Positions 500-64,000 of a DNA stretch of 64,000 nt are shown in pieces; position 1 is the first letter of the stretch; each line of letters begins with the position of its first letter. The translations under genes and the position numbers were made by a program. The notes beneath the pieces are model-generated. The model was not told where the DNA came from. It made no database searches and was given only the letters and a program-made list of their open reading frames with translations. Origin of the DNA: Volvox africanus (lineage: Eukaryota > Chlorophyta > Chlorophyceae > Chlamydomonadales > Volvocaceae); the NCBI GenBank assembly GCA_030268105.1, contig BSDZ01000103.1:2670501-2734500 (forward strand). The letters run 5' to 3'.

Positions 500-1313
500 T
501 GTTGTATGCCGGTTCGATCACCACTTGCACCGAAGTAGATCGCATTATATTCGAGCATTACGAAGCATGATATAATCATATTAGCATGATATATTTGAGT
601 ATATCTAGCTAATCAGGCATGTCACATTATCATCTATGACATCACGCTGTCGGTCAACATGTTTGACTCGATGCTGATATTAATGCGCAATCTATCCGTT
701 GGTATAATATTCCGCGTAATAATGCTTTGAATATTATTACCTCATCTGTGTCATAAACCATACGCGTATGCAAGAATGCGATGATCGCGATGGTTGGGTC
801 GGCAACCAAATATCGATATTCAGACCTTCGCATATTGCATGCGTTGCATTCATTAATATCACGGATTACGCGGTATTTAGAATAGTGCTACGAAGGTACT
901 CACACTTGAGATCAAAATCCAGTGAGACCTGTACTGCACATCGGTATCACGACGTGATAGGTGCAAGGACGGCCGCCTAGAGACCGAAGTCGGCTCAATG
1001 CTACTTTGGACTAAGTACCCGAGTACTTAACTCAATCTAATTCGTATACATACGTTTTATGCATTTATATTCGGCCTGAGCTATTCTAGCATAGCATCTT
1101 CAGCCGGATGATGAACATTGCCTGCGGGGTCTGACGGCAGACTTCTAATTTGCAACTGAAGATCATTGTAAGTTGAATCTTTCCTTATCTTTAAGTCTTC
1201 CGCTGTCATGTTGCTTGCACTGAAGTGTCTTGCTGTTCGTAAGCACCATGCACGTGTAGTTAACGCTCAGACGTGCAGATTCAGTGCATGATTGAAGAAG
1301 GAAGGATACAACA
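500..1313 (+). repeat. LTR family A, 5' LTR of element A1
   Basis: Starts TGTTGTATGCC and ends GGATACAACA, 814 bp, the reverse complement of the LTRs at 5327, 8380, 19723 and 43560. It contains the family's AT-rich inverted repeat and the second hairpin near 808-822. A primer binding site follows, so this is a 5' LTR for a + strand element. No matching 3' LTR is seen. Confidence 0.9.
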
Positions 1314-1317
1314 AATT

Positions 1318-1332
1318 TGGTATCGAGACAGG
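1318..1332 (+). other. Primer binding site of A1
   Basis: TGGTATCGAGACAGG lies 4 nt after the LTR end. The same 12-nt core follows the 5' LTR in families A, B and D. It begins like the plant initiator-Met site (TGGTATC) but then differs, so the primer tRNA is not certain. Confidence 0.8.
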
Positions 1333-1392
1333 TTCGTTGCCTGACTGTCTCATGGTGCTAAATCGGAAGTAAGTTCTCGCTTTGGTGGAAGT

Positions 1393-1458
1393 CCTCTAGA
1401 CATCTTTGCCAAAGAACTTGGACGTGCCATTTTGGACACCGTTGCTTCTGGTTTGTGA
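1393..1458 (+). pseudogene. Remnant of the leader mini-ORF of A1
   Basis: This stretch translates as PLDIFAKELGRAILDTVASG followed by L and TGA. It matches the C-terminal part of the 31-codon leader frame intact at 19560-19655 and 63260-63355. The ATG end is lost here, but the stop position is kept. Confidence 0.7.
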
Positions 1459-1642
1459 TTGTTGCTGTTCTTTTCTAGTTTCCTGCATTTGTTGTGGGAG
1501 CTTGCGCTCTGAGTTGCAGGTGAATTTAGCTGTCCGGCACTGCTTGCGATATTTCCTGGTTATAATCTACATTCTGATCAGTGGAGACTTTGATCGCACG
1601 GACTACTAAGATTGGGACCAGCTTAGCACGTATTCGCTATAC

Positions 1643-2735
1643 TTGCTCGCCATCCTGAAGAGTACTGTCGCCACTACGACTATGGATGGAGCTGTGGATC
1701 AACAGGGTCTGCTGTCGCCTCAAATACAGGACCACACCAGTATCCCTGAGGTGATGAAACTCACGATCCCTGTGCCTAAGCTTCATATTGCGTATGATGA
1801 GAAGCCTAGGACCCCCGGACGTAGTGTTGCTGATGCAACTCGTGCATATGTGCGCGATACTAACAAGTACCTGCAGGCGGTCCATGGTGGTGGAAATGAT
1901 GGTATTAAATGTCTCTTCGTTGGCAACACCCTCTCGGGCGCGGCGAAAGACTGGTATGACGAGTGGACCACTGCACGGAGTGACTTCACGTTCGATGAAT
2001 TGATTGCTGCATTGCTTGCACGATTTGCTACTGAGGTACATGCACGTAATGTTGAGGCCCGTAAGGCATTAGCACAAGGCACATATTACATGCGTGCACA
2101 TGAAAATGTACCTGCGTACCAGTCACGCTTCGAAGCACTAGTGACACCCATTGCGAACTTCTCCGAGGATGATCGCATCTTTTGGTTTCATCACGGCCTG
2201 ACGAAGACTCTGTCAAAATGGTGTGCTGCTGATTTATCTGGAGAACCGTTCCAGACGTACGATGCCTTGGTAAAATTTGCTCGGGTAACTGAGGTACGTT
2301 TCCTCGCTGGTCAGGATGATTCTATACCTACCCCACGTGCAAATACTATGCAAGCACAGGATCCGACTGATGAAGCTGTAACCAACGATCATGACCTTGG
2401 TGCTGCGCGCCCTACGACGGCTGCGACGGTCATGCGCACAGAGCGGCGCCACGGTGCTCGTGGTGGTTCAGGCACCGGGGCCCGTGGATCAGCGGGCGCA
2501 GGCCCAAGCTCTGGTCCAGACAAGAGCAAAAAGCGGGGAGGTGCGCCGTCAGCGGCTGCAGTGCAAAACTCCCACCCCCGTGCAAAGCGGATGCGCACGG
2601 AGGACCCCTTCTTGCCGAAGTGGGATTGCAAGCGCTCTGAGCTGGAGCGTCGGAAGACGGCCAATGTGTGCTAAAGGTGTACGGCGGACCACCTCACGAA
2701 GGATTGCCCATTGTTGCCGCCTTTGGCCGTGTGAC
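1643..2735 (+). pseudogene. gag: Chromovirus Gag, element A1 (stop in zinc knuckle)
   Basis: The open frame holds the capsid-like core (CLFVGNTLSGAAKDWYDEWT, then YQSRFEALVTPI) and a basic, Gly/Ser-rich C-terminal part. Gag packages element RNA into cytoplasmic particles. A TAA at 2672-2674 replaces the codon after the first zinc-knuckle Cys; the frame continues as RC-TAD-H-LTKD-C to about 2735. The junction at 1670/1671 (AGTACTGTCG then CCACTACG) lacks an intron of about 250 nt present in A2, A4, B2 and B6. There is no ATG at the N-terminus of this frame; the first in-frame one is the MDGA start at 1682. Confidence 0.85.
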
Positions 2736-10384: not shown

Positions 10385-13300
10385 TCAGAGAGGTCCGTCC
10401 TTAGACTGTGCCCGCAGCCTAGCTTCATCAAGCAGGGGTTTCATGTCAGGGGTGAAGTTACGTGCCGGTTCCCAGCTATTGTGCTCAGACGAATACCCAG
10501 ACCACTTAACCAGGTACTCATGTACGTTACGCTTACGCCTGCCTTTGCCAACACGTCGTGCACGGTAATCCAGGATACGTTCGACAGCATACAGGGTCTG
10601 CTTACCTGATAACCAGGTAGAGGGATTAGCTTCCGTAACAGGAGGGATGCTATCGTTAGCCTCAGGCAGAGTACCCCGATATGGACGTATGAGAGATACA
10701 TGAAATGTGGGATGAATGCGTAGGTCAGATGGGAGTTGTAACTCTACAGCCACCGACCCTACCATGCGTACGACAGGATAAGGCCCCACAAAGCGCGGTA
10801 ATAACTTGCGAGACCCATCAGCCAGGGAACGAAGGTTCTTCGTGCTCAACATAACCAGCTGGCCCTTGGTGAACGTGACGTCCTTTTTGGACTTGTTATA
10901 ATAGTCCATAGCCCGTTGCTGTGCAGCTTCCAGGCAAGCTTTAGCGTCAGTTAGACGGGACACGAAAGACTTAGCAAACGTTTTTGCAGCTGGAACATTT
11001 ACGTCCAACTCCCGCCAAACAGGCAAAGCAGGGTTAAAACCGTAATTCAGGAAAAACGGACTATTACCAACGGACCGGTTAGTAGCATTATTAATGGCAA
11101 ACTCAGCAGCGGTTAGGTAGGTATCCCATGCAGTAGGGGTGCGTCCTGCAAAGTTACGGAGCATATCACCCAGGACACGGTTAACACGCTCTGTTTGCCC
11201 ATCAGATTGGGGGTGGTAGGCGGTGGACAGGTTCACCCGCATTCCTACCAGAGTCCCCAGGGCGCCCCAAAACTTACTTGCAAATTGAGTGCCGCGGTCA
11301 GATACCACGGACTTGGGGACCCCATGCAAACGTACCACATTGTCGAAAAATAGACGGGCCGTTTGCTCAGCTGTGCAGGATGATGTCGTGGGGGCCAGGT
11401 GGACCATCTTGGTGAAACGGTCGACCAGGACCAGCACGGCATCGTATCCTCCCTCAGTTTTGGGCAGCGCAACAATAAAGTCCATAGAGACGCCTTCCCA
11501 CGGAGCGTCAGGAATAGGAAGAGGTTGGAGATGCCCATGTGCTTTACCAGACTGGGCCTTATTGCGCTGGCACAGGTCGCAACAGAGGACATAATTTTCG
11601 GTGTCCTTAGCCATGCGGGGCCACCAGAATTGACGCCGCAAAAGCTCTAGTAACCGCGTGCAGCCAGGATGCCCAGCAAGAGGGCCGTCATGAAAACGTG
11701 AGAGAAGTTCACGACGTAATGAATCGTCGTTAGGTATGACAATCTGACGGTGGGATCCTTCCGATCGGATCAATAAGCCATGCTCCTGTACCAAGTGCCC
11801 CGTGTTGTTGTGAATTGTGAACCACGGGTCGGCTGCATAAGCCTGTTTCAAGCGCTTGGTAAAATCGGAGGGCACGAAGTTAGGTTTTGCCTGAGACCTA
11901 CTACGTGTGCTTACCGCCAGAATGGCTGCATGCAGTGAGGGGTGCCTACTGAGAGCATCAGCTATGTTAAGTGAGCCGCTCAGGTACTCCCAATCAAAGT
12001 TAAACCGTGCCAGGTATTCCATCCAGCGGGCCTGGCGTCGGTTAAGGGAGGGCACACCTTGCAGAAACGTAAGGGGTTTGTGATCAGTCTTGAGGGCAAA
12101 AGGCCGGCCCTCAAGGTAACATCGCCATTCCTTCAAGGCATGTAGGACCGCCAGAAATTCCTGTTCCCCAGTGGTATAACGGGTTTCAGCCCCCGAAAAC
12201 TTCTTACTCGTGTATGCAATGGGGCGTCCCTGCTGCAACAGAACTGCCCCCGTCCCATGTATAGATGCATCAGTTATGACCTCTACACGGAACGGCAATG
12301 AGTAGTCAGGGAAGTGCAGGATAATATCATCAGAGATAGCACGCTTCAAAGCATCAAAAGCTTCTTGGCATGCGGGGGTCCAGGCCTCAGGTGAAGAGAA
12401 GGCTCCCTTACGTGTGAGGTTTGTTAGCGGTGCAGCAATGACTGAGTAGCGCTCTATGAACTTACGAAAGTAGTTGGTCAGGCCCAAAAACTTACGCAGT
12501 TCCTGAAGGTTGGAGGGCACTGGCCAATCCCGAACAACAGCAGTTTTCCGGGGGTCCATCCGTATGCCACCCTGAGACACTATATGCCCCAGATACTCCA
12601 CCTGTGGTTGTGCCCAGTGGCACTTAGAACGCTTAGCATACAGCTGCTCACACCGCAGAACCTCAAAGACCAGGCGGAGGTGTTGTATGTGCTCCTCACG
12701 GGTCTGTGAAAACACCAGGATATCGTCCAGATAACAGATGACGAATTTGTCGATGTATGGCCTGAAGATGCGGTCCATGACGGCTTGGAACGTTGCAGGG
12801 GCGTTCGTCAGTCCGAAACTAAGGAAGGTATATTCAAAATGGCCAAACGGCGTACGGAAAGCCGTTTTAGGGATGTCAGATTCTGCTATACGAATCTGAT
12901 TATACCCCTGCTGGAGGTCAATAGAGCTAAAGAATGCAGAATCTTTTAGCTTATCCAGCAGATCATCGACACGTGGGAGGGGGTAACGGTTCTTAACTGT
13001 TGCGGCATTTAACCCCCTATAGTCAATGCACATTCTCAGAGTCCCATCCTTCTTTCCCACAAACAGAATAGGGGCGGAGTATGGGGATGTGCTTGGCCGT
13101 ATCATACCTTTTTTCAGCAGCTCAGTAACCTGTCGTTTGACCTCGTCCAGCTCCAAGGGGCTTAGCCGATACATGGGGCGGGAAACGGGTACTGCACCAG
13201 GCACCAAAGGTATGGTGTGATCCACAGGCCGCATTGGAGGCTTACCAGGGACCTCCTGGAATATATCTGCATATTCCTGTAACAGGGCCTCAAGCTCAGG

Positions 13301-14455
13301 GTCAGTGGCATCAGCTGAGATAGAAGTTGCATTCAGGTGCAACTTGGGCCGTACTAGTAAAGCATGAGCCCCCTTGCGAATCATGCGAACTGCTGCTTTT
13401 CTGCCAACAACTTCAGGTTCAGTGTGCTGACAGATAGCAGTGGTTGCATAATTAAAGCAAGGCGCAGGTGTCATCTGATCTGGTGGCTGTCCGGCAGTAG
13501 TAAAGGGTACCTTGCAAACTAAAGTCCCCTTGCGCAGGCGCAAAGACTTAGACTCATAGTCAAGGACAGCCCCATACTGTGCTAGGGTGGAAGAACCCAA
13601 GATATACGTGGCAGCATCAGTTAGCTCAGGCAACACGTATGGGCGGACATTTAACCTTAAAGGACCTGCAGATAGACGAAGATTAACCTGCCCCAAGATA
13701 GCCTGCTTACCCCCATCAGCAAGGGTAACTTCTGACCAGGAGCATGGGCTAGGTTTCAGGCCAAGCTGCGTAACCACTGATGCCGAAATGAAATCATCAC
13801 TGGCTCCAGAGTCGGCTAGGGCGGTGAACGTACGACCTGCCGTACTTAAGGTGATCAGAGGTACGCCAGCACCTATCAGGGCAGCAGCTTTAGGCAAGCA
13901 GAGAACTGAAATACAGGGTTCAGTCTCAGGCAAGCCCTCCTGAACCGATTTAGGAGCAGCAAACCAGACGTCAACAGAGTATGGGCTTCCAGGGAGCTGA
14001 ACGACCTCACCTGCCATATCAAGGCTATGGAAAAGAGCCGTCCCTGGATTAAACCTTAAGACCCGTTGCATTCCCGACAGAAAAGAAGGGTTGCGTCAGG
14101 ACACATACTCAGGCAGCAAGATGCATGCTGAGGTATCAGGGTGTTGACGTTTGCATGCCCTAAAGTGAGCTAATTGCTTCTCTAGCTCGCAGAGTGAAGA
14201 GGGAGTGAACAAGATAGTATGCCCACCCAAGTTAGCGGAGGATAGGGGGCGACCTTGAGGCTCAAAAAGATTACAAAAGCCATCAAAGCCGGCACGGACA
14301 GTTCGTGCATCAAAAGAAAAACGTCTCCCTATCACCTGCTCCACTTGGTTTAAAACAGAGGGCAAAAGAGCCCGTACTGCACGGCACTTTGCTACCATCT
14401 GGCCCACAACAAAGACCCCAGGTGGTGATCCCTCTATACCAGCCTGGGCAAGTTC
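10385..14455 (-). CDS. pol: Pol polyprotein, element D (Gag readthrough product)
   Basis: It stays in the gag frame after UAG 14456-14458. A conserved N-terminal domain of unknown function comes first (about 14100-14400), with one in-frame TGA at 14096-14098. From Met 14071 there are 1228 codons. Protease DSGA is at 87-90; RT YLDD at 447-450; RNase H at D601, E638, D663 and D705. The integrase zinc finger is H794, H801, C831, C834, and the catalytic triad D864, D925, E961 (D-D-35-E). GPY/F lies near 1096-1130 and the chromodomain at about 1160-1205, with cage residues Y1161, W1190 and Y1193. Pol copies and integrates the element; the chromodomain probably guides it to methylated chromatin. 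The TGA may be a single lethal mutation or a second readthrough site. Confidence 0.93.
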
Positions 14456-18015: not shown

Positions 18016-18018
18016 CTA
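17977..18018 (-). promoter_or_regulatory. UAG readthrough signal, element A2
   Basis: ACU-UAG-GAA, a 7-nt spacer, then CCCGGGA pairing with UCCCGGG (18002-18008 and 17977-17983). Both arms and the spacer length match A4 (arms 41010-41016 and 40985-40991). Confidence 0.7.
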
Positions 18019-19254
18019 AGTCATCTTAGGCACAAAAGGCAGTAACAGAGGGCAATCACGAGTAGGGTGCTCTCCCGCACACCTCAGGCAAAGATTAGCG
18101 AACGTCCGATGATCAAACTCCAAATGTCGGCATTCCCACTTTTGCATATATGGATCTTCGGTCCGGGGCTTTTTAACACTAGGAGCCGTGTTCTGCATTG
18201 TCACTACAGTTGGCGTGCTCCCTCTTCGTTTCCCTTTTGCGTGGCCCGAGCTTGGCCCAGCTCCTGCGGACCCACGGTTACTTGGGTTTTGGCGTCCGCG
18301 AGCATCATACCGTCGTTCCTTCCGAGCGGTAGTCGCGGCCACCACGGGGTGTTGACGATCAGGACCCTGGTCCATCGGTGTCGACTCCGAAGGTGGTTCC
18401 TGCGCTCGCATTGCATGAATGCGAGGATTAAGCTGTTTAACGTCTTTACCAGCCAAATTCCGAACCTCCGCACCTCTAGCAAAAGTTACTAAGGCATCAT
18501 AAGACTGGAAAGGAACCCCACTAAGGTCGGTAGCGCACCATCGTGCGAGGGATTCGGTAAGACCACGATGAAACCAAAGGATGCGATCCTCCTCAGGGAA
18601 GTTAACAATAGGAGTTATCAGGGCCTCAAAACGCGACTGATAAGCAGGAACGGTTTCATGTGGACGCATATGGTATGTACCTTGCGCCAGCGTCTTACGA
18701 GCCTCATTACTACGCGAGTGAACTTCGGTAGCAAAGCGAGCGAGGAGAGCATCAATCAGATTATCGAACGTATACTTGACTCTAGCAGTTGTCCACTCGT
18801 CATACCAATCCTTCGCAGCACCCTCAAGGGTATTTCCAACGAACAGGCATTTAATGGAGTCGCATCCCCCACCGTGCACCGCTTGCAGATATTGCCTAGC
18901 GTCACGAACATAGGCCCGTGTCCTATCCGTGACACTATGTCCTGAACTCTTTGCCTTATCGTCAGTGGATATGTTAAGCTTAGGCACGGGGATGGTCAAT
19001 TTTATTACCTCCGGTATTCCGACGGGTTCTTGAACCGCGGGTGTTACCGGAGCCCGTTGCACTCCAGCTCCTTCGCTCATTGTAGCCGCTGCCGACAGTG
19101 GTACAATCAAGTGCGACGGGGACTGGAGGACAATAGGATCTGACATAAGACGAGTCCTGACAGTATCGGGATCAACGAAAGCAGTTCTAGCGGCGAGACC
19201 GCCGTCAGGCTGACTTGCGGTGCCCAGATAAGAACTATCTTCGCGTCCTGACAT
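18016..19254 (-). CDS. gag: Gag, element A2 (unspliced form)
   Basis: An open frame from MSGREDSS at 19254 to UAG at 18016, with an in-frame Met three codons further upstream at 19263. The core reads KCLFVGNTLEGAAKDWYDEW and YQSRFEALITPI. The knuckle is CLRC-AGE-H-PTRD-C, with three residues rather than the usual four between the second Cys and His. The first 55 or so codons lie inside a retained intron (19089-19345). The MSGRED start belongs to unspliced RNA; spliced RNA would join an upstream exon at codon VAATMSEG. The gene is uninterrupted and may encode intact Gag. Confidence 0.85.
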   Translation of the reverse strand: MSGREDSSYLGTASQPDGGLAARTAFVDPDTVRTRLMSDPIVLQSPSHLIVPLSAAATMSEGAGVQRAPVTPAVQEPVGIPEVIKLTIPVPKLNISTDDKAKSSGHSVTDRTRAYVRDARQYLQAVHGGGCDSIKCLFVGNTLEGAAKDWYDEWTTARVKYTFDNLIDALLARFATEVHSRSNEARKTLAQGTYHMRPHETVPAYQSRFEALITPIVNFPEEDRILWFHRGLTESLARWCATDLSGVPFQSYDALVTFARGAEVRNLAGKDVKQLNPRIHAMRAQEPPSESTPMDQGPDRQHPVVAATTARKERRYDARGRQNPSNRGSAGAGPSSGHAKGKRRGSTPTVVTMQNTAPSVKKPRTEDPYMQKWECRHLEFDHRTFANLCLRCAGEHPTRDCPLLLPFVPKMT

Positions 19255-19345
19255 GGAACACATGGAACTTATACTTATAAACAGGAATTTACTAAAAGAC
19301 CTGTAAACAAGCTATCACAAGAGGAATTTTCGATTACTCATGTAC
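19089..19345 (-). other. Gag-leader intron, present in A2
   Basis: 257 nt, donor GTCG|GTACATGAG and acceptor CGGCAG|CGGCTACA. Removing it gives GTC GCG GCT ACA, matching the intron-less A1 (GTC GCC ACT ACG). Its interior is the N-terminal coding part of the unspliced gag. Homologous introns lie at 34709-34958, 42929-43182 and 63572-63827. Confidence 0.72.
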
Positions 19346-19559
19346 CGACAGAACTCCCAAGTAATTCGAGAAGAAAGGCGATGTAATCCGTAAGGCCGTC
19401 TTTTATCTCAGTGGTTTTCTAAATCAGGGCCTTGATCTGTTCCGTGTTTAGATGTTGTCCAGCCAACACTGAGTCCAGCGATGGCGCACGTTCACCTGCA
19501 ACTCACAGTGGAACCTCACAATGAGAATGCAGCAACTAGTTATCAACAGATGTCTAGGT

Positions 19560-19655
19560 TTACAAACCAGAAGCGGCAGCGTCCAAGACGGCACGGCCGA
19601 GATCCTCAGTGAAGGTGTCTAAAGGGCTGCGGTGAGTGTCGTCGTCGCTCGCCAT
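19560..19655 (-). CDS. Leader mini-ORF of A2 (31 codons)
   Basis: MASDDDTHRSPLDTFTEDLG leads into RAVLDAAASGL-stop. The same length and stop are found in A4 (43397-43492), B2 (35175-35270) and B6 (63260-63355). An in-frame splice from its GGT codon (TCTG|GTTTGT) to TTGCAG|GTGAACG near 19465 is possible. Confidence 0.6.
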   Translation of the reverse strand: MASDDDTHRSPLDTFTEDLGRAVLDAAASGL

Positions 19656-26079: not shown

Positions 26080-26812
26080 TTTCGGCTGAGGTACAAACGG
26101 CGGCAGCAACGGGCAATCCTTGGTAGGATGGCTCTCCGCGCACCGTAGACAAACATTGGCCGCTTTCCGACACTCGAACTCGGAACATAAACGAGTCGTC
26201 CGTGTGAGTCCGCTTCGCATTGGGGTCAGAGCGCTGTGCGGCTGCCGACGACGGCGCGCCCCCACGCTTCCTGCTTTTAGCTGGGTCCGAGCTCGGACCT
26301 GCTCCTCCTGACCCGTGGACACCTGAGCTAGCGCCCCTGCGCGCCTTGTGTTGCCGGCTGCTACGTCGCATCGTGGCAGTAGGCGCGGGGTGGGTAGCTC
26401 CAAGTTCCTGGTCCAGAGCTACAGCTTCCCCAAGCGGATCCTCAGGGATGGCAGCGTGCCCTTGTGATTGAGGTAATGGCAGAACCCGTGGTCCAGCAGT
26501 GTTGTCCATATTCGTATTAACGACAGTACTCTTGAGAAGATTCAGCAACCTCAGCAAGTACTGGCCCAGCTGAGTCCGAATCTCCGTAGTTTGGGCGATA
26601 AGAGTCGCCAACTGGTCCGGACGAAAGCCGGTCTCAGTCGTCGCGGCAAGCAATGCCGGAGCGCTGAGATTACCTGCGACCCAGAGCGTACACTCACACA
26701 ACAAGTGCAGCAATCTAGACAAAAGCAAACAAACAATTACAAACCGGAAGCGGCCTAGGTCTTCGGTGAAGGTATCTAGCAGTCCTCGTGGTTCGTCGCT
26801 GGAACTCGCCAT
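26077..26812 (-). pseudogene. gag: B1 gag and leader (capsid core deleted)
   Basis: The leader frame starts MASSSDEPRG at 26812, but a 20-nt deletion between direct GCCGC repeats shifts it. Next comes ALLAATTETGFRPDQLATLI up to LLKST, joined directly at 26521/26520 to VVNTNMDNTAG; this is the exact spliced form of the intron retained in B2 and B6. After AAIPE the sequence jumps to DPLGEAVALDQ, so the capsid core is gone. The C-terminal basic region and short knuckle (CLRCAESHPTKDC) remain, with a further frameshift near 26190. Confidence 0.82.
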
Positions 26813-34364: not shown

Positions 34365-34871
34365 TCAGAGCAAAGCGGCGATCATCTCGTCAAAAGTATA
34401 GTCGCCCCGGGCGGTGGTCCATTCGCGATACCAGTCCTTCGCTGAGCCCTCGAGGGTGTTACCAACGAAGAGACACCTGATACCGTCATTATTGCCACCA
34501 TGAACAGCCTGGAGATACTTTTTAGCGTCACGCACGTGCGCACGAGTTGCATCCGCTATGCTATGTCCTGATGTCTTTTCAGTTAGCGAGATATTGAGCC
34601 TAGGAACGGGAATTGACAATCTCATCACCTCAGGGATGTCATCATGCCCTCGAGCTTGAGGTAATGGCAGAACCCTTGTTCCAGCAGTGTTGTCCATATT
34701 GGTGTTAACTGCTGAATGCGGCACAATTAAGTGAGCAGGGGTCTGAAGGACAAGGGGATCTTGAGTGGCTCGCGCGCCAACAGTCTCAAGATCTCTATCT
34801 CTAGCAGCCACAACAAAATCGGGTTGGCTAGCTAGGCTAGTGTGCGGCGTATCGTCGTGTTCCGCGGACAT
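34365..34871 (-). pseudogene. gag: B2 Gag N-terminal part (C-terminal half deleted)
   Basis: MSAEHDDTPHTSLASQPDFV (the unspliced start) leads into IPEVMRLSIPVPRLNISLTE and CLFVGNTLEGSAKDWYREW. Sequence jumps at about 34364 from FDEMIAALL to the pol N-terminal domain, removing the rest of gag, the knuckle and the UAG signal. The retained intron spans 34709-34958. Confidence 0.82.
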
Positions 34872-34958
34872 GGAGCACTAAACGATACCCTAGGTTTGCG
34901 TAATAGAAGCCGACTTCTATCGCAAAGGCAAGAGTACAAAGCGATTCGGTGAGCCTAC
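34709..34958 (-). other. Gag-leader intron, present in B2
   Basis: 250 nt, donor GTCG|GTAGGCTCA and acceptor CAGCAG|TTAACACC. Removing it yields GTCGTTAACACC, which B1 shows directly as GTCGTTAATACG. Confidence 0.75.
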
Positions 34959-35174
34959 CGACAGTACTCTTGAGAAGATTCAGTAAGCTCAGCAAGTACT
35001 TGCCCAGCTGAGTCCTGATCTCCGTAGTTTGGGCAATGAGAGTCGCCAACTGGTCCGGACGAAAGCTGGTCTCAGTCGCTGCGGCAAGCAAGGCCGGTGC
35101 ACTGAGATTACCTGCGACTCAGAGCGCACACTTACACAACAAGTGCAGCAATCTAAGTAAAAGCAATTAAACAA

Positions 35175-35270
35175 TTACAAACCGGAAGCGGTGGCGTCCA
35201 AAACGGCACAGCCTAGGTCTTCGGCAAAAGTATCTAGCGGTCCTCGTGGTTCGTTGCTGGAACTCGCCAT
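35175..35270 (-). CDS. Leader mini-ORF of B2 (31 codons)
   Basis: MASSSNEPRGPLDTFAEDLG leads into CAVLDATASGL-stop. ATG and TAA positions match A2, A4 and B6. Confidence 0.58.
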   Translation of the reverse strand: MASSSNEPRGPLDTFAEDLGCAVLDATASGL

Positions 35271-41023: not shown

Positions 41024-43092
41024 CTAAGTCGTCTTGGGCACGAAAGGTGGTAACAGAGGACATTCGCGAGTAGGATGCTCTCCCGCACACCTCAAGCAAA
41101 GATTAGCGAACTTCCGACGGTCAAACTCCGAACATCGGCACTCCCACTTTTGCATATACGGATCCTCTGTCCGGGGCTTCTTAACACTAGGAGCTGCGTT
41201 CTTCATTGCAGCTACAAACACAGTGCTCCCTCTTTGCTTTCCTTTCACATGGCCCGAGCTTGGCCCAGCTCCCGCAGACCCACGATTACTTGGGCTTTGG
41301 CGTCCGCGAATATCATACCGTCTTTCCTTCCGAACGGTATTCACGGCCGCCGCGGGGCGTTGACGATCGAAACCCTGGTCCTTCGGTGTCGACTCTGAAG
41401 GTGGTTCCTGCACTCACATCACGCGAATGCAAGGATTAAGTTGTTTAGCGTCCTTGCCAGCCATATTCCGAACTTCTGCACCTCTAGCAAAAGCTACTAA
41501 GGCATCATAAGATTGGAATGGAATTCCATTGAGGTCAGTGGCACACCATTGCGCAAGGGATTCGGGAAGACCACGATGAAACCAAAAGATACGATCCTCC
41601 TCAGGAAAGTTAACGATAGGAGTTATCAGTGCCTCAAAGCGGGACTAATAAGCAGGAACGGTCTCGTGTGGACGCATATGGTACGTGCCTTGTGCCAGCG
41701 TCTTACGAGCCTTGTTGCTACGCAAGTGAACTTCCGTAGCAAAGCGGGCGAGGATAGCATCGATCAGGTTCTCAAACGTGTATTTGACTGTCGCAGTTGT
41801 ACATTCGTCATACCAATCCTTTGCGGCACCCTTGAGGGTATTCCCAACGAACAGGCATTTAATAGAGTCGCATCCCCCGCCGTGCACCGCTTGCAGATAT
41901 TGCCTAGTGTTGCGAACGTAAGCCCGTGTCCTATCCGCGACACTATGCCCTGAATTCTTTGCCTTTTCGTCAGCGGAAATATAAAGTTTAGGCACGGGGA
42001 TGGTCAATTTCATTACCTCCGGTATTCCGACGGGTTCTTTGTTGTGCCACGGTTCGTTTCCCGCCGATGCGTAGGTCGATGCAACCCTACAAGCCGAAGT
42101 GCTATTTTGATGAACGCATGAACGATCACTGCATATGAATGAACTTGCATGATGTAAATGTATTCGTATACATTTATATATGCATTTGGCATGTCATCCT
42201 TATCCATCACGACATCGCATCATGGCAAATCCGCCTAGCATGCATGAAAGCCCGAATCATTGAAGTGCGCATTATGCTCGTGCTACGAAACGATAAGTAA
42301 TATTATTTGAGATAATATTACTTCATTACAGCACACGTTGAGAGCGCCGCACCCGTCGTGATGCATGCCTTGCAACTGAATATCGTTATTTGGACCCTTG
42401 CATCATGAGAATGTCGGAAAGGCTTATCGGTTGTTATGCTTGGACATCGCCTATACGCAGTAGGGTTGTCACACTTAGGATCGGCCTCCTAGTGTGAATC
42501 ATATGACATTGCGATGCTGCGAGTATAACAGATGCGAGGACGGCTAAGCAAGATAAGACATTTGATACCGGAGAACACTTGTGTGTTCAACATTACTATT
42601 GCTATACGCTCTTCTACTTAGCCTGAGCTAAGCCTAAACTTCGCTTATCACTGCCGCGTGATGATTGCTTGCTTCCGGCGCTGATGGCGATTTCGTCCAT
42701 TGCATCACTTCGATCTGTAAGACTGTAAGTTATATCTCTCTTCGTCTTGAAGTCTTCCGCTGTCCTGTTTGCTCTCGCTTCCCTTGCTATACTTGCAAGT
42801 GCTCGCGCATCGGTGTCGAAAGCCTCCAGACGCGCACATTCTTATGAGCAAACACGAAGGAGAGGTACAACATTCTTGAACCGTGCGTGTTACCGGAGCC
42901 CGTTGTGCTCCAACTCCTTCACTAGCCGCTGCCGACAGTGGTACAATTAAGTGTGAAGGGGTCTGAAGAACAAAGGGATCGGACATAATACGAGTCCCGA
43001 CGGTATCGGGATCGACAAAAGCAGTTCTAGCGGTAAGACCGCCGTCGGGCTGGCTGGCGGTGCCCAGATAGGAACTATCTTTGCGTCCCGAC
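41024..43092 (-). pseudogene. gag: A4 Gag, interrupted by a reversed solo LTR B
   Basis: Unspliced start MSGRKDSSYLGTASQPDGGL at 43092. The solo LTR at 42040-42872 (TSD TTCTT) splits it. The core (CLFVGNTLKGAAKDWYDECT) and short knuckle CLRC-AGE-H-PTRE-C remain; stops occur near 41645 and 41414. It ends in UAG with the CCCGGGA/UCCCGGG stem (40985-41016). Confidence 0.87.
42040..42872 (+). repeat. Solo LTR family B, reversed
   Basis: TGTTGTGCCACGG to GAGGTACAACA, 833 bp, flanked by TTCTT (42035-42039, 42873-42877). Opposite in orientation to the other B LTRs before 62369. Confidence 0.94.
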
Positions 43093-43182
43093 ATGAAGCA
43101 CGAACTTATACGGGTGAACAGGAATTTACTAAAAGATCTGTGAGCAAAGTAACGCAAGAGGAATTTGCGACTATTCACGTAC
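42929..43182 (-). other. Gag-leader intron, present in A4
   Basis: 254 nt, donor GGTACGTGAA and acceptor CGGCAG, matching the A2 intron at both ends. Confidence 0.68.
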
Positions 43183-43396
43183 CAACAGAACTCCCGAGTT
43201 AGCCGAGGAGAAAAGCAATGTAGTCCGTAAGGCCGTCTTTCATCTCAGCGGTTTTCTAAATCAGGGCATTGATCTGATCCATATTTAAGTGTTGTCCAGC
43301 CAACACTGAGTCCAGCGTTGGCGCACGTTCACCTGCAACTCACAGTGCAAGCTCGCAACGAGAATGCAGCACCTAGTTATTACCAGATGTCTAGGA

Positions 43397-43492
43397 TTAC
43401 AAAACGGACGCGGCGGCGTCCAGGACGGCTCGGCCAAGATTCTCAGCGAAGGTGTCTAAAGGGCTGTGGCGCGTGTCGTCGTCGCTTGCCAT
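43397..43492 (-). CDS. Leader mini-ORF of A4 (31 codons)
   Basis: MASDDDTRHSPLDTFAENLG leads into RAVLDAAASVL-stop. Downstream, the candidate second exon has a TAG shared with A2 (CTGATTTAGAAA on the minus strand). Confidence 0.55.
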   Translation of the reverse strand: MASDDDTRHSPLDTFAENLGRAVLDAAASVL

Positions 43493-46582: not shown

Positions 46583-46936
46583 TCACTCTCCAGGGCCAGG
46601 GCACAAGAGCATACCTCAAACAGCCACACCCTCACCAGAACCCAACAAAACAAAATTCGCAAGCAGCGACTGACCCACCTGCCAGAGGAGGTACGAGCCC
46701 AGCGGCACATGGCCCAAACAGAGAGGGCAAGGCAAGCCCGGAAGGCCAAACTAGCCTTGCAACGGAAGGAGAGGGAGTCAACGGTATCAGGTGGTATAAC
46801 CAAGGAGGCACTCCGACCACGGCGGACACCCACTCGGCGTCCCCGGCAAACCAAAAACAACCCCAACCCATCCCAGGACATGGACTGCGATGGGAAGGAG
46901 TATGACCCCCCCAACCGGGAAACCCAAGCCGAATAA
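46583..46936 (+). CDS. LINE ORF1 C-terminal part
   Basis: Open with no stop from the element's 5' edge; the first ATG is at 46709 (75 codons to TAA). The peptide is very basic and Arg/Lys/Gln-rich (RARQARKAKLALQRKERE) and probably binds nucleic acid, as ORF1 proteins do. No zinc knuckle is left. Its TAA (46934-46936) shares its last A with the ORF2 ATG. Confidence 0.7.
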   Translation, partial: SLSRARAQEHTSNSHTLTRTQQNKIRKQRLTHLPEEVRAQRHMAQTERARQARKAKLALQRKERESTVSGGITKEALRPRRTPTRRPRQTKNNPNPSQDMDCDGKEYDPPNRETQAE

Positions 46937-49900
46937 TGTCCAGAGGCAACAAGAGAAGTCAGCGGCAGGGAGCTATCTCAGGGCATCCACTGCGCATAGC
47001 CACGCACAATATGCGAGGGCTTCTGGCCTCTCATGGCAGTCGACTTCAGGCAGCGGTACGTCAATGGGCTGAGCAGCGGCTGGATGTTGTATGTCTGCAG
47101 GAAACCCACCACACTACCCTCCAGCACCAATGCCTGTTTGAACGGGATCTTCGTTATGCCACCAAACAGATCCACACACAAAACTGGAAGATAGCAGCCT
47201 ACTCTTGGTCTAACTCGACGCACACAGCAGGAGTGCTCATCCTCATCAGACAGGGGCTAGCTTCAGCTCTGGCACCTAAACTGGCAACACCCCAGCATAC
47301 ATGTACGAGAGGCCGTTTCACCGACTGTATCCTCCACTGGGGGGGACACCGCCTGCACATCTGCAATATCTACCTCCCACCTGGCACTACCTCGATGGCT
47401 GCGGAAACCCGGCGACAACTCTTCGAGAACGCCCTGGCTGCCACCACAACGCAAGCCATGGAGGACAATAGGGACACCACCCTTATCTGGGCAGGAGACT
47501 TCAACTTTGTGGAAAACCCAGAGTGGGACTCGTCCGCAGGAAGAGATGGGCGTCAAGCAGATAGGCCTATCACTGAGATGCGGCAGCGGGCAGGCCCACA
47601 GATGGTAGATACCCACCGATACCTCCACCCAAGGCGCCGTGACTTCACTCACCTGTACCATGCACCCACCCCAGGCGGTTCACGCCTAGATCGCATCTAC
47701 ATCAATGAAGCCAAGCTGCCGTACCTATGCCATACAGCCATCTCCTTCCACACAGCCTCAGACCACCGTCTTGCCACACTTCATCTCCTACCTTGCAAAA
47801 ATGAGGTCAAGGGCCCAGGCATCAAGCGTATACGCATGGCCTTCACTGACCATGAGGATTTGGCTACAAGCATGGCGGAGTGGATCCGGAACCAATGCCA
47901 AGAGGCACCCTCAGTCGAAGAGAATCCGGGCAACCTTATTGCTTGGTGGCCTGGTTTTAAACGCCGACTAACCTTCCTAGCACACCAACTCAACAAGGTA
48001 GCGCAACAGCGCAGACAGCAGCCAGGTGCTCATACCCAGGAGGCCTACCTTGGGGTCCAACAGGCCCAACAAGCCCTCGATACTATGCCGCACTCACCAC
48101 ACCTACTACAGCAGCTCATAGATGCCCAAGCAAGACTGGCTAGGGTGCATATTGAGGACAACGCCAGGGTGGCAAAAAAGACCCGGGTCCACTGGTTACA
48201 CGCAGGAGAGCGTCCTGGCCCAGCTCTGACAACCTTCCTGCAAACCCAAATCCAGGACCAGCAAACAGCCCCAGTGGCACTCCAGGCACACTCAGGCCGA
48301 CTGGTCACTAATCCAGCACAGCTACCACAGGTCGTAGCGGACTTTTGGGCAGGGGTATGCAGAGCCCCAGACTTCACCACTCCTGAAGATCGCCAGTCAG
48401 TGCTAACCCAGTTAGCAGCAGCCAACATCCGACTCCCTGAGGAAGCTGACGAAGTGGCTGGGTCCCCGACCATTGCTGTGACTGAGCTGGGTTTCGCACT
48501 GAAGAAGAGCCAGCCAGGCAAAGCACCCGGATGGGATGGCATCCCAACGGATCTGTACCGCAAGTTCTGGCCAGAGATTGGCCATACCATGGCAGCCCTC
48601 TTCACGGCTATCGGCAAAACAGGGCAGGTGCCAACAGGCTTTCTGGATGGTATCATTAAGGTGCTTTACAAGAAGGGAGACCCCAAACAGCCTGGTAACT
48701 ACCGCCCTATCACACTGCTTTGCTCGGACTACCGCTTGCTGGCCAAGGTGCTGGCAAATCGCCTAGGGCCAGCCCTGGGACGAATCATTAGCCCTGAGCA
48801 GTCAGCTTTTCTGCCCAAGAGGCTCATCGGGGCCAGTGTTCTCTTTCTACGCCATCTGCCTCATCTCTTACGGAAATTGAACCGCCAAGGTCTGCTGGCC
48901 TTCCTGGACTTCGCAAAAGCTTATGACACAGTGGACCGCAACTTCCTGATGGGGGCGATGGAGGCGATGGGAGCAGGCCCACAGCTTTGCAGTTGGACCC
49001 GGATATTGCTTAGCAACACGCGGGCAAGAGCCATGGTGAACGGTTTCAAATCCAGGCTTGTTCAAATGGAAGCAGGGGTAAGACAGGGTTGCCCTCTAGC
49101 ACCCCTGCTGTATCTCTTTGTTGCCCAGGCCTTGTTCAGCTGGCTAAAGAGCCAAGAGATAGGCCTCCGCCTATTGCCTTCAGATGAAGACAGGGTCACA
49201 GCCTGTCAGTTTGCTGATGATGCAGAAGTGGCCCTTGAAGGAGAGGAATCCGTGCCAGCCTTCCTTGAAGCCATGGATACTTTTGCCCGGGCATCAGGTC
49301 AACGCCTGAACCTGGATAAGATGGAAATCCTACCCATAGGGGCTGTGGACGACCACCATCAGGGAAGCACAATAAATGGCCTGAAGGTGGTCACCACTGC
49401 GACAGCCCTTAACTTGCCAATGGACAACCAACTGCAGCCGCCCCAACCAGACTGGCCGGAGATGCTAGCCCTGGCCTACACGAGGATGCAACGCCTAGCC
49501 CATTATCCGCTCTCTGCCTTTGGTCGGGCTGCAGCAGTCTCCAACTATTGCCTGCAAACAGTCACTTGGCATATGGAGCATGGTGGACCACCTCCAGATA
49601 CCACTCTGACCTACATTGAACGCTTAGCTGCTCGCCTTGTAGATCGGAAACAGGGCCCAGAAGACCAGGGCCAGCGCTTCACTGGAGTACCTAGCAGACT
49701 CTTGGTGGGACACCCATCAACTGGTGGTTTTGGCCTACTGCCCCTCAGGCAACACATTCGGGCAAGACAAGCCATGTGGGCAGTGCGATTCATCCGAGGG
49801 GCCCTGATGGCCAGGAGAGAGAGAGAGAGGGTAATGCTTCTGGACACGGCGATGAATACGGTTGCTGAAGAAGAGGAAGAGCCAGTTACTAGTGGTAATG

Positions 49901-51585
49901 TTCGAAGCCTCCACCCCTGGATCCGGACCCTGGCCACCTACCTGGAGATCACCCATCCGGCCTTTAAACCTTGGGCCCTTACCACTGCCCAGGCAACTGG
50001 GCCCTGGCTGGGTGGAGAGACCTTGCCTGAGGAGATCAGCCGAATTGTAGGGGCTTTAGGGCACCTCCCACCACTAGAAGATGTCAGCAACCCACCTTTA
50101 GCCCCTGGAGACTGGTGCTGGGCGGCTGCTCTCTGGGGAAATCCTTTGCTGCCCAACAATTCGGACAATGGGGGAAGCATCAATGGTAACAACCACCGCC
50201 CAGGCCTGGAAACCCGTCACCCACTGATGGCTTCATGCAGAAAACTGCTCACAGTTGGGGACCTGGTAAGGGTGTACGACATGCTGGAGCATGACCAAAT
50301 ACCCCTCCCTCAGTACATGACCTGGCTAGACTGGACCCAACAGTTTCTAGACCCCTCAGCTAGCCCCACCCAACTGCGAGACAAGGAGTCTACCCGTATG
50401 GCTCTCTCGGCTCTATGCAACGATATCAGCCCGGCATGGATAGCAGCAGCACGGAAGGTAGTCAACCGCTTACAACCCCAACAGCCGGACAGGGTGGAGG
50501 ACAGAATGCAGCAGCAGATGCCAGCACCACCAGACCGCACCACAGTCATGGCCATGATCGTCAGGCGTTTGGGCTGGAGATTGCCAGGGGACTCGGGTAT
50601 AGTGCCTCTCTACAACCTCACGGTAAGCCAAGCTACTCAGCTGCAAGGGGTTTCAACAGCGGAGGAGCGATTGGAGCTCTTGTCAGCTTTTGTGCAGGAG
50701 GCGCAAGGGATGCCAACAGACGGTCCAGCTCCTCCCTGTCCTGTCACTAACCTCCAGCGCTTTCAGGCAACCCTAGACAGGCTGTGGACAGCAGTTCGGT
50801 GGGAAAATAAAAACAAAGAGACGCTGTGGCGTTTGGTGGTCGATGGGATACCCATACCTGGCAACACACATCTTTCCAGGGTGCCCATCAAACCATGTGG
50901 GTGTGGCAGCTATGGAGCTGATACTGATCAACCTTGCTCCCCACGCCTGCACCACTTCTGGGAGTGCCCTATAGCCAAGGCGGTGCGAGAACAGATTGAC
51001 AGACATCTGCCATTGCCGACATCAGCCACCATTGAAGGGGGCTTGACCAGGCAACAGCTATGGCTTGTCCAAGCACCTCCCGGTTGCGAGCAGGCCCCAT
51101 GGGACGTGATAGCTTTGGCAGCCTTATCTTCTATGGAATATGGCAGGCACTGTCTCCGGGCGGCAACAAGAGAACACAGGCCACAGTGGCCTTCTACCCA
51201 CAGACGGCGGCAGCAACAACAGACCCACACAGCAGAGCAGGGACCCCGTCAACGGGCTATTACTGACTTCTTCAACCGTTCAGGGGGGTTCCCTCAAGAG
51301 GAAGAGGAAGATGCCAACACCCATCCAATCATCTCTACGACACAGCCAGCAATGGACACTCCAACACAAACAGCAACCTCACCCCTGGACCGTGCACAGG
51401 CCCGTACAGTTGCCGACTTTTGGGCACGCTTGCATTCTTTTGCAGCGTTGGGAATACCTCACTATGGCTGGGATCAAGTGGGACCACAACATCCCATCCT
51501 AGCCATAGTTGGCACGCAAATGCGGTGTGCAGATCCGGTTGACATCACCAACCATGGAGCAGCAAGAACAGAGCAGGGGCTTTAG
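46936..51585 (+). CDS. LINE ORF2: AP endonuclease, reverse transcriptase, C-terminal zinc motif and PIP box
   Basis: 1549 codons, uninterrupted. The N-terminal AP-like endonuclease shows THNMRG near 25, QETHH near 55, GDFNF near 188 and SDHR at 275-278. RT follows with PGKAPGWDGIPTD (near 530), GNYRPITLLC, SAFLPKR, FLDFAKAYDTVDR, RQGCPLAPLLY and the active site FADD at 759-762. A Cys/His cluster (CGCGS, C, HHFWEC) lies near 1320-1345. A PIP box QRAITDFF is at 1439-1446. ORF2 nicks the target DNA and copies the element RNA there. The start is the AUG of a UAAUG overlap with ORF1. The length and integrity suggest recent activity. Confidence 0.95.
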   Translation: MSRGNKRSQRQGAISGHPLRIATHNMRGLLASHGSRLQAAVRQWAEQRLDVVCLQETHHTTLQHQCLFERDLRYATKQIHTQNWKIAAYSWSNSTHTAGVLILIRQGLASALAPKLATPQHTCTRGRFTDCILHWGGHRLHICNIYLPPGTTSMAAETRRQLFENALAATTTQAMEDNRDTTLIWAGDFNFVENPEWDSSAGRDGRQADRPITEMRQRAGPQMVDTHRYLHPRRRDFTHLYHAPTPGGSRLDRIYINEAKLPYLCHTAISFHTASDHRLATLHLLPCKNEVKGPGIKRIRMAFTDHEDLATSMAEWIRNQCQEAPSVEENPGNLIAWWPGFKRRLTFLAHQLNKVAQQRRQQPGAHTQEAYLGVQQAQQALDTMPHSPHLLQQLIDAQARLARVHIEDNARVAKKTRVHWLHAGERPGPALTTFLQTQIQDQQTAPVALQAHSGRLVTNPAQLPQVVADFWAGVCRAPDFTTPEDRQSVLTQLAAANIRLPEEADEVAGSPTIAVTELGFALKKSQPGKAPGWDGIPTDLYRKFWPEIGHTMAALFTAIGKTGQVPTGFLDGIIKVLYKKGDPKQPGNYRPITLLCSDYRLLAKVLANRLGPALGRIISPEQSAFLPKRLIGASVLFLRHLPHLLRKLNRQGLLAFLDFAKAYDTVDRNFLMGAMEAMGAGPQLCSWTRILLSNTRARAMVNGFKSRLVQMEAGVRQGCPLAPLLYLFVAQALFSWLKSQEIGLRLLPSDEDRVTACQFADDAEVALEGEESVPAFLEAMDTFARASGQRLNLDKMEILPIGAVDDHHQGSTINGLKVVTTATALNLPMDNQLQPPQPDWPEMLALAYTRMQRLAHYPLSAFGRAAAVSNYCLQTVTWHMEHGGPPPDTTLTYIERLAARLVDRKQGPEDQGQRFTGVPSRLLVGHPSTGGFGLLPLRQHIRARQAMWAVRFIRGALMARRERERVMLLDTAMNTVAEEEEEPVTSGNVRSLHPWIRTLATYLEITHPAFKPWALTTAQATGPWLGGETLPEEISRIVGALGHLPPLEDVSNPPLAPGDWCWAAALWGNPLLPNNSDNGGSINGNNHRPGLETRHPLMASCRKLLTVGDLVRVYDMLEHDQIPLPQYMTWLDWTQQFLDPSASPTQLRDKESTRMALSALCNDISPAWIAAARKVVNRLQPQQPDRVEDRMQQQMPAPPDRTTVMAMIVRRLGWRLPGDSGIVPLYNLTVSQATQLQGVSTAEERLELLSAFVQEAQGMPTDGPAPPCPVTNLQRFQATLDRLWTAVRWENKNKETLWRLVVDGIPIPGNTHLSRVPIKPCGCGSYGADTDQPCSPRLHHFWECPIAKAVREQIDRHLPLPTSATIEGGLTRQQLWLVQAPPGCEQAPWDVIALAALSSMEYGRHCLRAATREHRPQWPSTHRRRQQQQTHTAEQGPRQRAITDFFNRSGGFPQEEEEDANTHPIISTTQPAMDTPTQTATSPLDRAQARTVADFWARLHSFAALGIPHYGWDQVGPQHPILAIVGTQMRCADPVDITNHGAARTEQGL

Positions 51586-63195: not shown

Positions 63196-63210
63196 TGGTA
63201 TCGAGACAGG
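63196..63210 (+). other. Primer binding site of B6
   Basis: TGGTATCGAGACAGG three bases after the LTR. Confidence 0.83.
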
Positions 63211-63259: not shown

Positions 63260-63355
63260 ATGGCGAGTTCCAGCGACGAACCTCGAGGACCGCTAGATAC
63301 TTTTGCCGAAGACCTAGGCCGCGCCGTTTTGGACGCCGCCGCTTCCGGTTTGTAA
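63260..63355 (+). CDS. Leader mini-ORF of B6 (31 codons)
   Basis: MASSSDEPRGPLDTFAEDLG leads into RAVLDAAASGL-stop. It may be exon 1 of gag: G|GTTTGTAATTG (63348) to GTCGCAG|GTAATC (63419) removes 71 nt and joins in frame to NLSAPALLAAATETGVRPD, a region that has no ATG of its own. Confidence 0.62.
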   Translation: MASSSDEPRGPLDTFAEDLGRAVLDAAASGL

Positions 63356-63571
63356 TTGTTTAATTGCTTTTGCTTAGATTGCTGCACTTGTTGTGTAAGT
63401 GTACGCTCTGAGTCGCAGGTAATCTCAGTGCACCGGCATTGCTTGCCGCGGCGACTGAGACCGGCGTTCGTCCGGACCAGTTGGCGACTCTCATCGCCCA
63501 AACTACGGAGATCAGAACTCAGCTGGGCAAGTACTTGCTGAGTTTACTGAATCTTCTCAAGAGTACTGTCG

Positions 63572-63827
63572 GTAGGCTCACCGAACTGTTTTGTACTCTT
63601 GCCTTTGCGATAGAAGTCGGCTTCTATTACGCAAAACTAGGGTATCGTTTCGTGCTCCATGTCCGCGGAACACGACGATACGCCGCACACTAGCCTAGCT
63701 AGCCAACCCGATTTCGTTGTAGCTGCTAGAGCTTCGGATAGAGGTCTTGAGACTGTTGGCGCGCGAGCCACTCAAGAGCCCCTTTTCCTTCAGACCCCTG
63801 CTCACTTAATTGTGCCGCATTCAGCAG
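63572..63827 (+). other. Gag-leader intron, present in B6
   Basis: 256 nt, donor GTCG|GTAGGCTCA and acceptor TTCAGCAG|TGAACACA. Splicing gives LLKST-VVNTNMDN, exactly as in B1. The intron has an ATG at 63659 that opens an in-frame alternative Gag N-terminus. Confidence 0.78.
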
Positions 63828-64000
63828 TGAACACAAATATGGACAACACTGCTGGACCAAGGGTTCTGCCATTACCTCAAGCTCGAGGGCATGATGACAT
63901 CCCTGAGGTGATGAGATTGTCGATTCCCGTTCCTAGGCTCAATATTTCGCTGACCGACAAGACACCAGGGCATAGCATAGCCGATGCAACTCGTGCGTAC
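63659..64000 (+). CDS. gag: Gag, element B6 (unspliced start), partial
   Basis: MSAEHDDTPHTSLASQPDFV continues through LQTPAHLIVPHSAVNTNMDN into IPEVMRLSIPVPRLNISLTD and ADATRAY at the window end. The first 56 or so codons lie in the intron. It is homologous in protein sense to the A2 start (MSGRED, then SHLIVPLSAAAT), so the alternative N-terminus is shared by families A and B. Confidence 0.8.
   Translation, partial: MSAEHDDTPHTSLASQPDFVVAARASDRGLETVGARATQEPLFLQTPAHLIVPHSAVNTNMDNTAGPRVLPLPQARGHDDIPEVMRLSIPVPRLNISLTDKTPGHSIADATRAY

Follow-up and report, generated by a model that had tools for sequence, protein, structure and literature searches.

Retroelements must divide a single RNA between translation, packaging and splicing, and how they do so is an open question on which the gag introns of Volvox bear. 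The window analyzed here (the whole stretch of 64,000 nt from Volvox africanus contig BSDZ01000103.1) contains many Ty3/gypsy chromovirus copies, some of which carry a segment of 250 to 257 nt that is exactly missing in others. A first-pass annotation took this segment for an intron that, when retained, encodes an alternative Gag N-terminus. Which proteins can one such element make, and from which RNAs?

Chromovirus Copies in the Window and the Genome

The elements with the segment are Volvox chromoviruses, that is, Ty3/gypsy elements with a chromodomain. Domains for asp protease, RVT_1, RNaseH, H2C2, rve, SH3_Tf2-1 and Chromo were found at window positions 10388-14071 (minus strand), in an element related to copy B6 and not in B6 itself. 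Their protease-RT-RNaseH-integrase order, together with the chromodomain, is that of a Ty3/gypsy chromovirus. In Pfam comparisons, Retrotrans_gag scored above cut-off in gene models P0003, P0007 and P0011, and a Ty3_capsid match lay below its cut-off. Protein searches for relatives returned, among the matches listed, V. africanus proteins, one V. reticuliferus protein (P0006, whose N-terminus looks unrelated by eye), the metagenome proteins P0008 and P0010, and further P0011 and P0054. A literature search with most subscription journals outside its coverage turned up nothing published about the element or about the splicing of gag in Volvox. The window also holds a non-LTR element ORF of 1549 aa with endonuclease and reverse transcriptase domains (46936-51585, plus strand).

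Junctions were searched genome-wide (140,993,249 bases, 126 contigs) with up to 3 mismatches tolerated. Element copies were taken from best-match lists with 40 matches scored per search; the sample leans towards the queries, and family sizes are therefore lower bounds. Rows L051, L065, L069, L076 and L077 were unparsed, L033, L064 and L099 were omitted, and L035 and L070 had no acceptor, leaving 97 rows. For 7 of these the parsing yielded no start of the upstream frame N1 (see below) or no introns, leaving 90 rows for the N1 counts. Gene models are predictions whose tags are those of cluster representatives, and families C and D were compared as proteins, not as DNA. The available part of PMC10291315 describes a transcriptome-assisted gene prediction, with StringTie and TransDecoder used for part of the models, and the deposition of RNA-seq from V. 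africanus 1101-NZ-11.

Intron 2 and Its Precise Losses

The segment, called intron 2 below, was confirmed on the coding strand with GT...AG ends in copies A2 (19089-19345, minus, 257 nt), A4 (42929-43182, minus, 254 nt), B2 (34709-34958, minus, 250 nt) and B6 (63572-63827, plus, 256 nt). It is precisely absent from A1 (junction 1670/1671, plus) and B1 (junction 26520/26521, minus), as the first-pass annotation had reported, and the flanks can be aligned across all six copies. The copy alignment placed both losses at homologous bases; junctions that differ between A1 and B1 would have spoken against splicing. The grouping of A1 with A2 and A4 had to be given up, since A1 belongs to a separate lineage with its own intron-bearing relatives. 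Among the intron-bearing copies parsed, GT-AG ends were found in 27 of 28 B, 6 of 9 A1-type and all 22 A2-type copies. The single B exception has a GC donor (L029). The three A1-type exceptions (L068, L072, L074) have an acceptor other than AG, which might explain why intron 2 was kept there.

Genome-wide and with up to 3 mismatches, segment-less junctions were found at 14 places for the B type and 27 for the A1 type. Half of the B-type places have no extra CAG, with GTCG joined to TGAAC or TGAAT (5 places) or to TTAAT (2 places). At the other 7, GTCG (GACG in one case) is joined to CAGTGAAC, with the extra CAG. These two classes are the two products of the tandem NAGNAG acceptor, TTCAG/CAG/, seen in intron-bearing B copies. 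The A1 type shows one product, and a tandem acceptor is absent from its intron-bearing relatives. The reversed control patterns had no match (0 for each), and with such recurrence chance is no contender. In a comparison with L067, L071 or L073, 23 of 24 segment-less A1-type copies had a junction that was exactly GT-AG, and the remaining one, L060, has a base change beside the donor; L066 was unsuited as a reference, having an A where A1-type rows have a G before the donor. The junctions of L009 (= B1) and L016 were GT-AG on realignment to another reference. For the A2 type, one search pattern with up to 3 mismatches found 0 DNA copies without intron 2, though a spliced A2 gene model (P0053) exists, and A2 was dropped as a further case of intron 2 loss.

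Was intron 2 lost once or many times? A tree was built from 20 late B copies over 1980 nt with introns excluded; L009, L011 and L016 were left out because their capsid region is absent, and L009 and L016 belong to an older subfamily. The AU test on the 20 late copies rejected one clade for the CAG class (n = 7, p = 1.2e-5), for the TGAA class (n = 4, p = 5e-6) and for all 11 segment-less copies (p = 0.007). No two of the 14 segment-less B copies have a common flank upstream of the LTR, indicating separate insertions. The AU tests and the differing flanks rule out a single origin of intron 2 loss in B. One segment-less copy, L012, has 81 nt of flank in common with the intron-bearing L001 (= B6) and appears to be inserted in the intron 2 segment of another B element. 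The 24 A1 segment-less copies form one clade inside their intron-bearing relatives (FastTree, supports not considered), which makes one loss followed by amplification likely. Most of them have their own flank; the whole flank is common to L041 and L042 and to L056 and L057, part of it to L040 and L045 and to L044 and L061, and L049 and L062 could not be judged. Recurrent precise GT-AG losses in B and A1 types bear out the proposal that spliced RNA was reverse transcribed. As judged from the sequence, the segment is thus a spliceosomal intron that also codes.

Introns 1 and 3

Two further alternative introns, beyond the one first noticed, flank intron 2. The layout can be followed in B6 (plus strand), whose internal region starts with a PBS-like sequence, GGTATCGAGACAGG (63197-63210), placed next to the LTR end as judged in other copies; we take it to resemble an initiator-Met PBS. 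Exon 1 (63260-63347) holds a start codon and the first 29 codons of N1, and is followed by intron 1 (63348-63418, 71 nt, GTTTGT...TCGCAG) and by exon 2 (63419-63571), which encodes the rest of N1 to ...LLKSTV. Intron 2 comes next, then exon 3 (63828-63907; VNTNMDNTAG...IPE), common to both forms. Intron 3 starts at 63908 with the donor GTGATGAG, holds the capsid coding region and continues beyond the window end at 64000; it measures 603 nt in the relative L106. The same layout from PBS to segment was seen in B and A2 copies, namely an ATG with an open frame of 88 nt, an intron 1 of 67-72 nt with GTTTGT...GCAG ends, and an exon 2 of 150-154 nt ending at the segment donor.

Intron 1 is retained in B2 (35112-35182, minus), B1 (26674-26744, minus), A1 (1451-1519, plus) and A2 (19496-19567, minus, 72 nt); its equivalent in A4 (43333-43404, minus) has the donor TT and not GT. 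Because A1 and B1 keep it, neither is a copy of fully spliced RNA, and this reading of the two copies was ruled out. Elsewhere intron 1 is precisely absent at 7 B places, all with 0 mismatches, and in one A2-type copy (L081).

Bounded by splice sites, intron 3 is itself coding sequence in the Gag frame and divisible by 3 in length, with 603 nt in B and 609 nt in A1 and A2. It is present with GT...AG ends and in frame in A1 (1751-2359, plus) and A2 (18400-19008, minus), and is removed in the A1-type model P0046 and the A2-type model P0053. Precise absences were found at 23 places (up to 3 mismatches), 10 of which were inspected. Introns 2 and 3 are both missing from two of the inspected copies, L016 and L009 (= B1, junction CCTGAG/GATCCG at 26440/26441, minus), and all three introns from one, L011; all 7 others keep introns 1 and 2. 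In B1 the capsid coding region is thereby also absent, with GT-AG ends. A comparison of L105, which holds L011, with the intron-bearing L106 revealed five gaps of at least 8 nt; three are GT-AG (71, 256 and 603 nt), and the other two (680 and 678 nt) are not. The B splice forms present as DNA comprise the form with all three introns, those without intron 1 only (intron 3 partly read), intron 2 only or intron 3 only, the one without introns 2 and 3, and the one without any. The splice forms kept as genomic copies, including both tandem-acceptor products, make the reverse-transcribed RNAs readable from DNA.

Several single copies show other rearrangements. In L040 and L059 (A1 type), 406 nt are absent between another donor and the intron 3 acceptor, out of frame, pointing to an alternative or cryptic 5' splice site. 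In L105 the intron-free copy belongs to a tandem array, ordered LTR-internal-LTR-internal, in which intron 1 is kept by the second internal part. The gap of about 680 nt in L106 lies at the start of RT around 3006, its ends are not GT-AG, and because of it this intron-bearing B copy looks non-autonomous.

Two Conserved N-Termini

Without intron 1 and the segment, exons 1 and 2 and Gag form one open frame, which joins N1 (about 80 aa) to VNTNMDN.... N1 is open in 37 of 41 B, 14 of 18 A2-type and 1 of 31 A1-type copies parsed, the A1 exception being the outlier L078; the window copies A2 (in exon 2) and A4 have stops in it. The second N-terminus, N2 (about 57 aa), lies inside intron 2 and would begin Gag if the intron were retained. 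In B6 it spans 63659-63827 (MSAEHDD...HLIVPHSA), and in A2 it reads (MCS)MSGREDSSYLGTASQPD.... Starting from an internal ATG, N2 covers the 3' two thirds of the intron. It reaches the acceptor without a stop and continues in the frame of Gag in 26 of 28 B, 6 of 9 A1 and 17 of 22 A2 intron-bearing copies parsed. N2-like N-termini also occur in other families of the JP strain (P0007, P0048).

The claim that the intronic ATG frame is conserved as protein and in frame with Gag withstood the analysis, the frame being open in 49 of the 59 intron-bearing copies parsed and dN/dS lying below 1. Between families, each represented by copies chosen for their open frames, the ratio was 0.23-0.53 for N2, not the value near 1 expected of a non-coding frame, and 0.20-0.40 for N1, for which the A1 side is L078 alone. 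Two within-family N2 pairs reached 0.58-0.59. The Gag part after the acceptor gave 0.10-0.36 between families where the ratio was defined, and N2 is less constrained. Synonymous change was in excess by Fisher test for both N2 (p = 8e-6 to 5e-4) and N1 (p = 2e-8 to 1e-4), with three pairs each. By these substitution patterns, both N-termini are under purifying selection. Raw identity was dropped as coding evidence because the N2 part (0.62-0.69) is not clearly more conserved than the 5' part of the intron (0.56-0.63).

Both N-termini are kept in B, A2 and, by gene models, families C and D, while A1 has lost N1. With the N1 frame dead, A1-type elements cannot make the second N-terminus; since A1 is also found segment-less at 27 places, its mobility seems to require neither N1 nor N2, unless help comes in trans. 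In the A1 lineage (window 1200-2674, L039-L063), N1 has decayed and segment-less copies were amplified without N1 and N2.

The start codons are arranged so that intron 1 could decide which one is used. When intron 1 is retained, N1 of an unmutated B copy ends after 31 codons, and a Gag without intron 2 could start only at the ATG after the junction. Read from base 450, L106 first has a frame of 28 codons and then the 31-codon frame of the N1 start, which closes within intron 1; no further ATG occurs before that of N2. With intron 1 out and intron 2 in, the N1 frame extends to 120 codons and overlaps the N2 start in a different reading frame. ATGs between the two starts are also rarer than expected, with means of 0.4, 1.7 and 1.75 against 3.5, 7.0 and 4.4 in 20 B, 6 A1 and 16 A2 copies, respectively, which are related copies. 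Ten copies with a broken N2 were omitted from this count, and L081 and L091 were included with intron 1 not parsed (it is absent in L081). The depletion may partly reflect codon constraint.

Gene Models and the N1-NC Protein

Public gene models offer a second view of the spliced products. P0013 (234 aa, 21 members) consists of N1, a linker and NC with introns 1-3 out, the architecture of the frame in L105, and P0014 (1 member) carries the extra A of the CAG acceptor. In P0011 (28 members) introns 1 and 2 are out, the CAG is kept and the capsid is in; P0005 (11 members), which also has the capsid, begins with the first ATG downstream of the acceptor. The A2 model P0053 is an N1 form without capsid, and the A1 model P0046 starts after the acceptor, again without capsid. 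In the JP strain, the tags Vafri_7019, Vafri_12727 and Vafri_9260 each cover two capsid-less proteins, one of 231 aa with N1 and one of 214 aa with N2; a locus tag is common to the two members of each of the pairs P0018/P0023, P0019/P0021 and P0020/P0026. The two forms also occur in family D (P0041, 33 members; P0048, 11 members, N2 start), and family C has N2-start models (P0007, P0023 and others). Among the matches listed in ranked protein searches, no public model has an N2 start of B or A2, the N2 models being seen only in C and D, and N2 use in B, A1 and A2 therefore rests on conservation.

These models change part of the earlier picture, in which spliced and unspliced RNA of one element yield two Gag proteins with different N-termini. 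The conserved N2 frame agrees with it, but the spliced N-terminus turned out to be N1, made of two upstream exons, and needs intron 1 out as well. The capsid is absent from every examined model with a complete or nearly complete N1, except P0011. Hence the usual second product may be a capsid-less N1-NC and not a second Gag.

Helices are predicted for N1-NC, which also contains a basic part and a CX2CX3HX4C knuckle. The AlphaFold model of P0013 (6 sequences) is weak, with a mean pLDDT of 50 and three helices whose block means are 57-75 over residues 11-80. No solved structural relative was convincing (3 matches at E 0.25-0.87), and Pfam gave no domain for P0013, P0020 or P0041 at E up to 0.1. 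KRTR at 183 and LGNYLLSLLNL at 65 of P0013 fit loose motifs for nuclear import or export, and a three-leucine pattern found no leucine zipper. In L105, L106 (2207-2209) and window copy A2 (near 18016, minus), Gag ends with TAG and pol is in the same frame, suggesting stop-codon readthrough.

A Splicing Model and Its Alternatives

In all likelihood, the segment is intron 2 of three alternative gag-region introns, with unspliced RNA coding for N2-capsid-NC and fully spliced RNA for N1-NC. The unspliced RNA would serve as genome and as Gag messenger. On it the N1 start would open a 31-codon frame ending in intron 1, and the next ATG would be the N2 start inside intron 2, giving a Gag composed of N2, capsid and NC. 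In the fully spliced RNA, N2 and the capsid would be removed and N1, predicted with moderate confidence to be helical, would be joined through a short linker to NC in a protein of about 234 aa. Partly spliced RNAs would exist besides these two, and spliced RNAs would occasionally be reverse transcribed into precise intron-less DNA copies, of which the A1 type was then presumably amplified. We infer that one element uses both RNAs and that a choice is made between the N1 and N2 start codons. A fuller scheme is possible, and we hold it tentatively: a switch in which keeping intron 1 yields Gag from N2, while removal of introns 1-3 yields an N1-NC that acts back on the unspliced RNA as a regulator of the Rev or CERV kind, evolved independently in the green lineage. 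Both N-termini would serve this switch in B, A2, C and D (the last two by gene models), N1 having been lost in A1, and genomic DNA would be an archive of the splice forms. A general switch sits less easily with the A2 type, for which the one search pattern used found no intron-2-less DNA copy, with the spread of A1 after its loss of N1 and, in the segment-less clade, of N2, and with the N1 stops of window copies A2 and A4 and the changed intron 1 donor of A4.

Could the absences instead be deletions between short repeats, at the DNA level or by slippage of reverse transcriptase? There is microhomology at the ends (3 nt for introns 1 and 3, 1 nt for intron 2 of B), and ordinary deletions do occur, of 680 nt in L106, 678 nt in L105, 1051 nt in L099, 66 nt in L075 and 56 nt in L031. 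Yet none of these five is GT-AG, whereas the deletions that recur across copies are. Diverged lineages have moreover lost homologous introns at corresponding bases, B and A2 in the case of intron 1 and B and A1 in that of intron 2. The two B classes differ by exactly the CAG of the NAGNAG acceptor, and gene models splice the same sites; we give deletion hardly any credence. It is improbable, if less extremely so, that intron 2 is an ordinary intron, with splicing the sole meaningful path and the intronic frame a decaying relic of an older Gag N-terminus. The examined B and A2 models, in which intron 2 is either removed or lies ahead of the start (P0005, P0011, P0013-P0016, P0053), and the spread of A1 without the segment would suit such a relic. 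It is harder to reconcile with N2 frames that are mostly open, with dN/dS well below 1 between lineages, or with N2-start models in families C and D. The capsid also lies within intron 3, so that constitutive removal of all three introns would leave no particle protein.

A separate, shorter transcript from an internal promoter could supply the N2 start, making N1 and N2 alternative first exons. Two annotated forms under one tag could be just that, and no long conserved frame was recognised in the 5' part of intron 2. Transcription of the genomic RNA necessarily begins within the LTR in such elements, however, and this RNA would contain the N2 frame anyway, and we regard this origin as rather unlikely. 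The main rival for the purpose of intron 3, compatible with splicing itself, is that its removal brings Pol nearer to the start in a capsid-less Gag-Pol messenger, N1 being a leader peptide. With gag ended by TAG and pol in frame (L105, L106, A2), spliced RNA could make N1-NC-Pol by readthrough; purifying selection on N1 itself argues for more than a leader, and we put the chances of this rival as low, though not negligible.

Comparison with Known Systems

An exitron is a coding sequence that is also an intron. Intron 3 resembles one in that it codes in the frame of Gag and has been removed from some of the forms; intron 2 differs, since as a whole it is not fully coding. The preferred reading, with N2-capsid-NC from unspliced and N1-NC from fully spliced RNA, recalls several retroviral and retrotransposon proteins. 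Rev and Tat of lentiviruses are small regulatory proteins from multiply spliced RNA, glycoGag of MLV is a Gag with an alternative N-terminus, and p22 of Ty1 is a truncated Gag with regulatory action. The likeness to Volvox lies in the kind of product, and no homology is claimed.

Among plant LTR elements, Ogre belongs to Ty3/gypsy and has its intron near the gag-pro/RT border, not at the gag start or in the capsid. It is like the Volvox element in having a functional intron, and few LTR elements of the plant lineage are known to use introns, according to the accessible text of PMC12786077. Closer in their use of splicing are BARE1 of barley (PMC3735527) and EVD of Arabidopsis (PMC8892269), for which the available portions of the reports describe a facultative intron and unspliced and spliced RNAs for different proteins; both are Ty1/copia elements, in contrast to the Ty3/gypsy element of Volvox. 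BARE1, as far as that portion of PMC3735527 extends, has one intron of 104 nt just after gag, which favours Gag production and encodes no alternative Gag N-terminus. In the same text, PCR on barley DNA yielded no shorter product of the spliced size; in Volvox, by contrast, DNA copies without introns are common.

The nearest parallel is CERV of Cer1 from Caenorhabditis elegans. In the accessible sections of PMC10309623, CERV comes from a multiply spliced mRNA whose first exons are in the gag frame, and is needed for export of the unspliced RNA. Like the Volvox element, Cer1 is an LTR element of the Ty3/gypsy kind, and CERV has predicted N-terminal helices and a cysteine-rich part, as N1-NC does. 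CERV also has a basic NLS-like motif, for which the KRTR of P0013, fitting a loose pattern, is a candidate counterpart. With 517 aa CERV is the larger protein, and an exon downstream of pol supplies its large C-terminal half (PMC10309623), whereas in Volvox the splice-only part is N-terminal (N1) and the C-terminus is NC; the two are likened by architecture, not by sequence. The analogy makes an N1-NC regulator plausible, and we would venture as a guess that N1-NC might, by analogy with CERV of Cer1, act on the export, stability or packaging of unspliced RNA. If so, green algae too would harbor elements controlled in the retroviral manner by a protein made from spliced RNA only.
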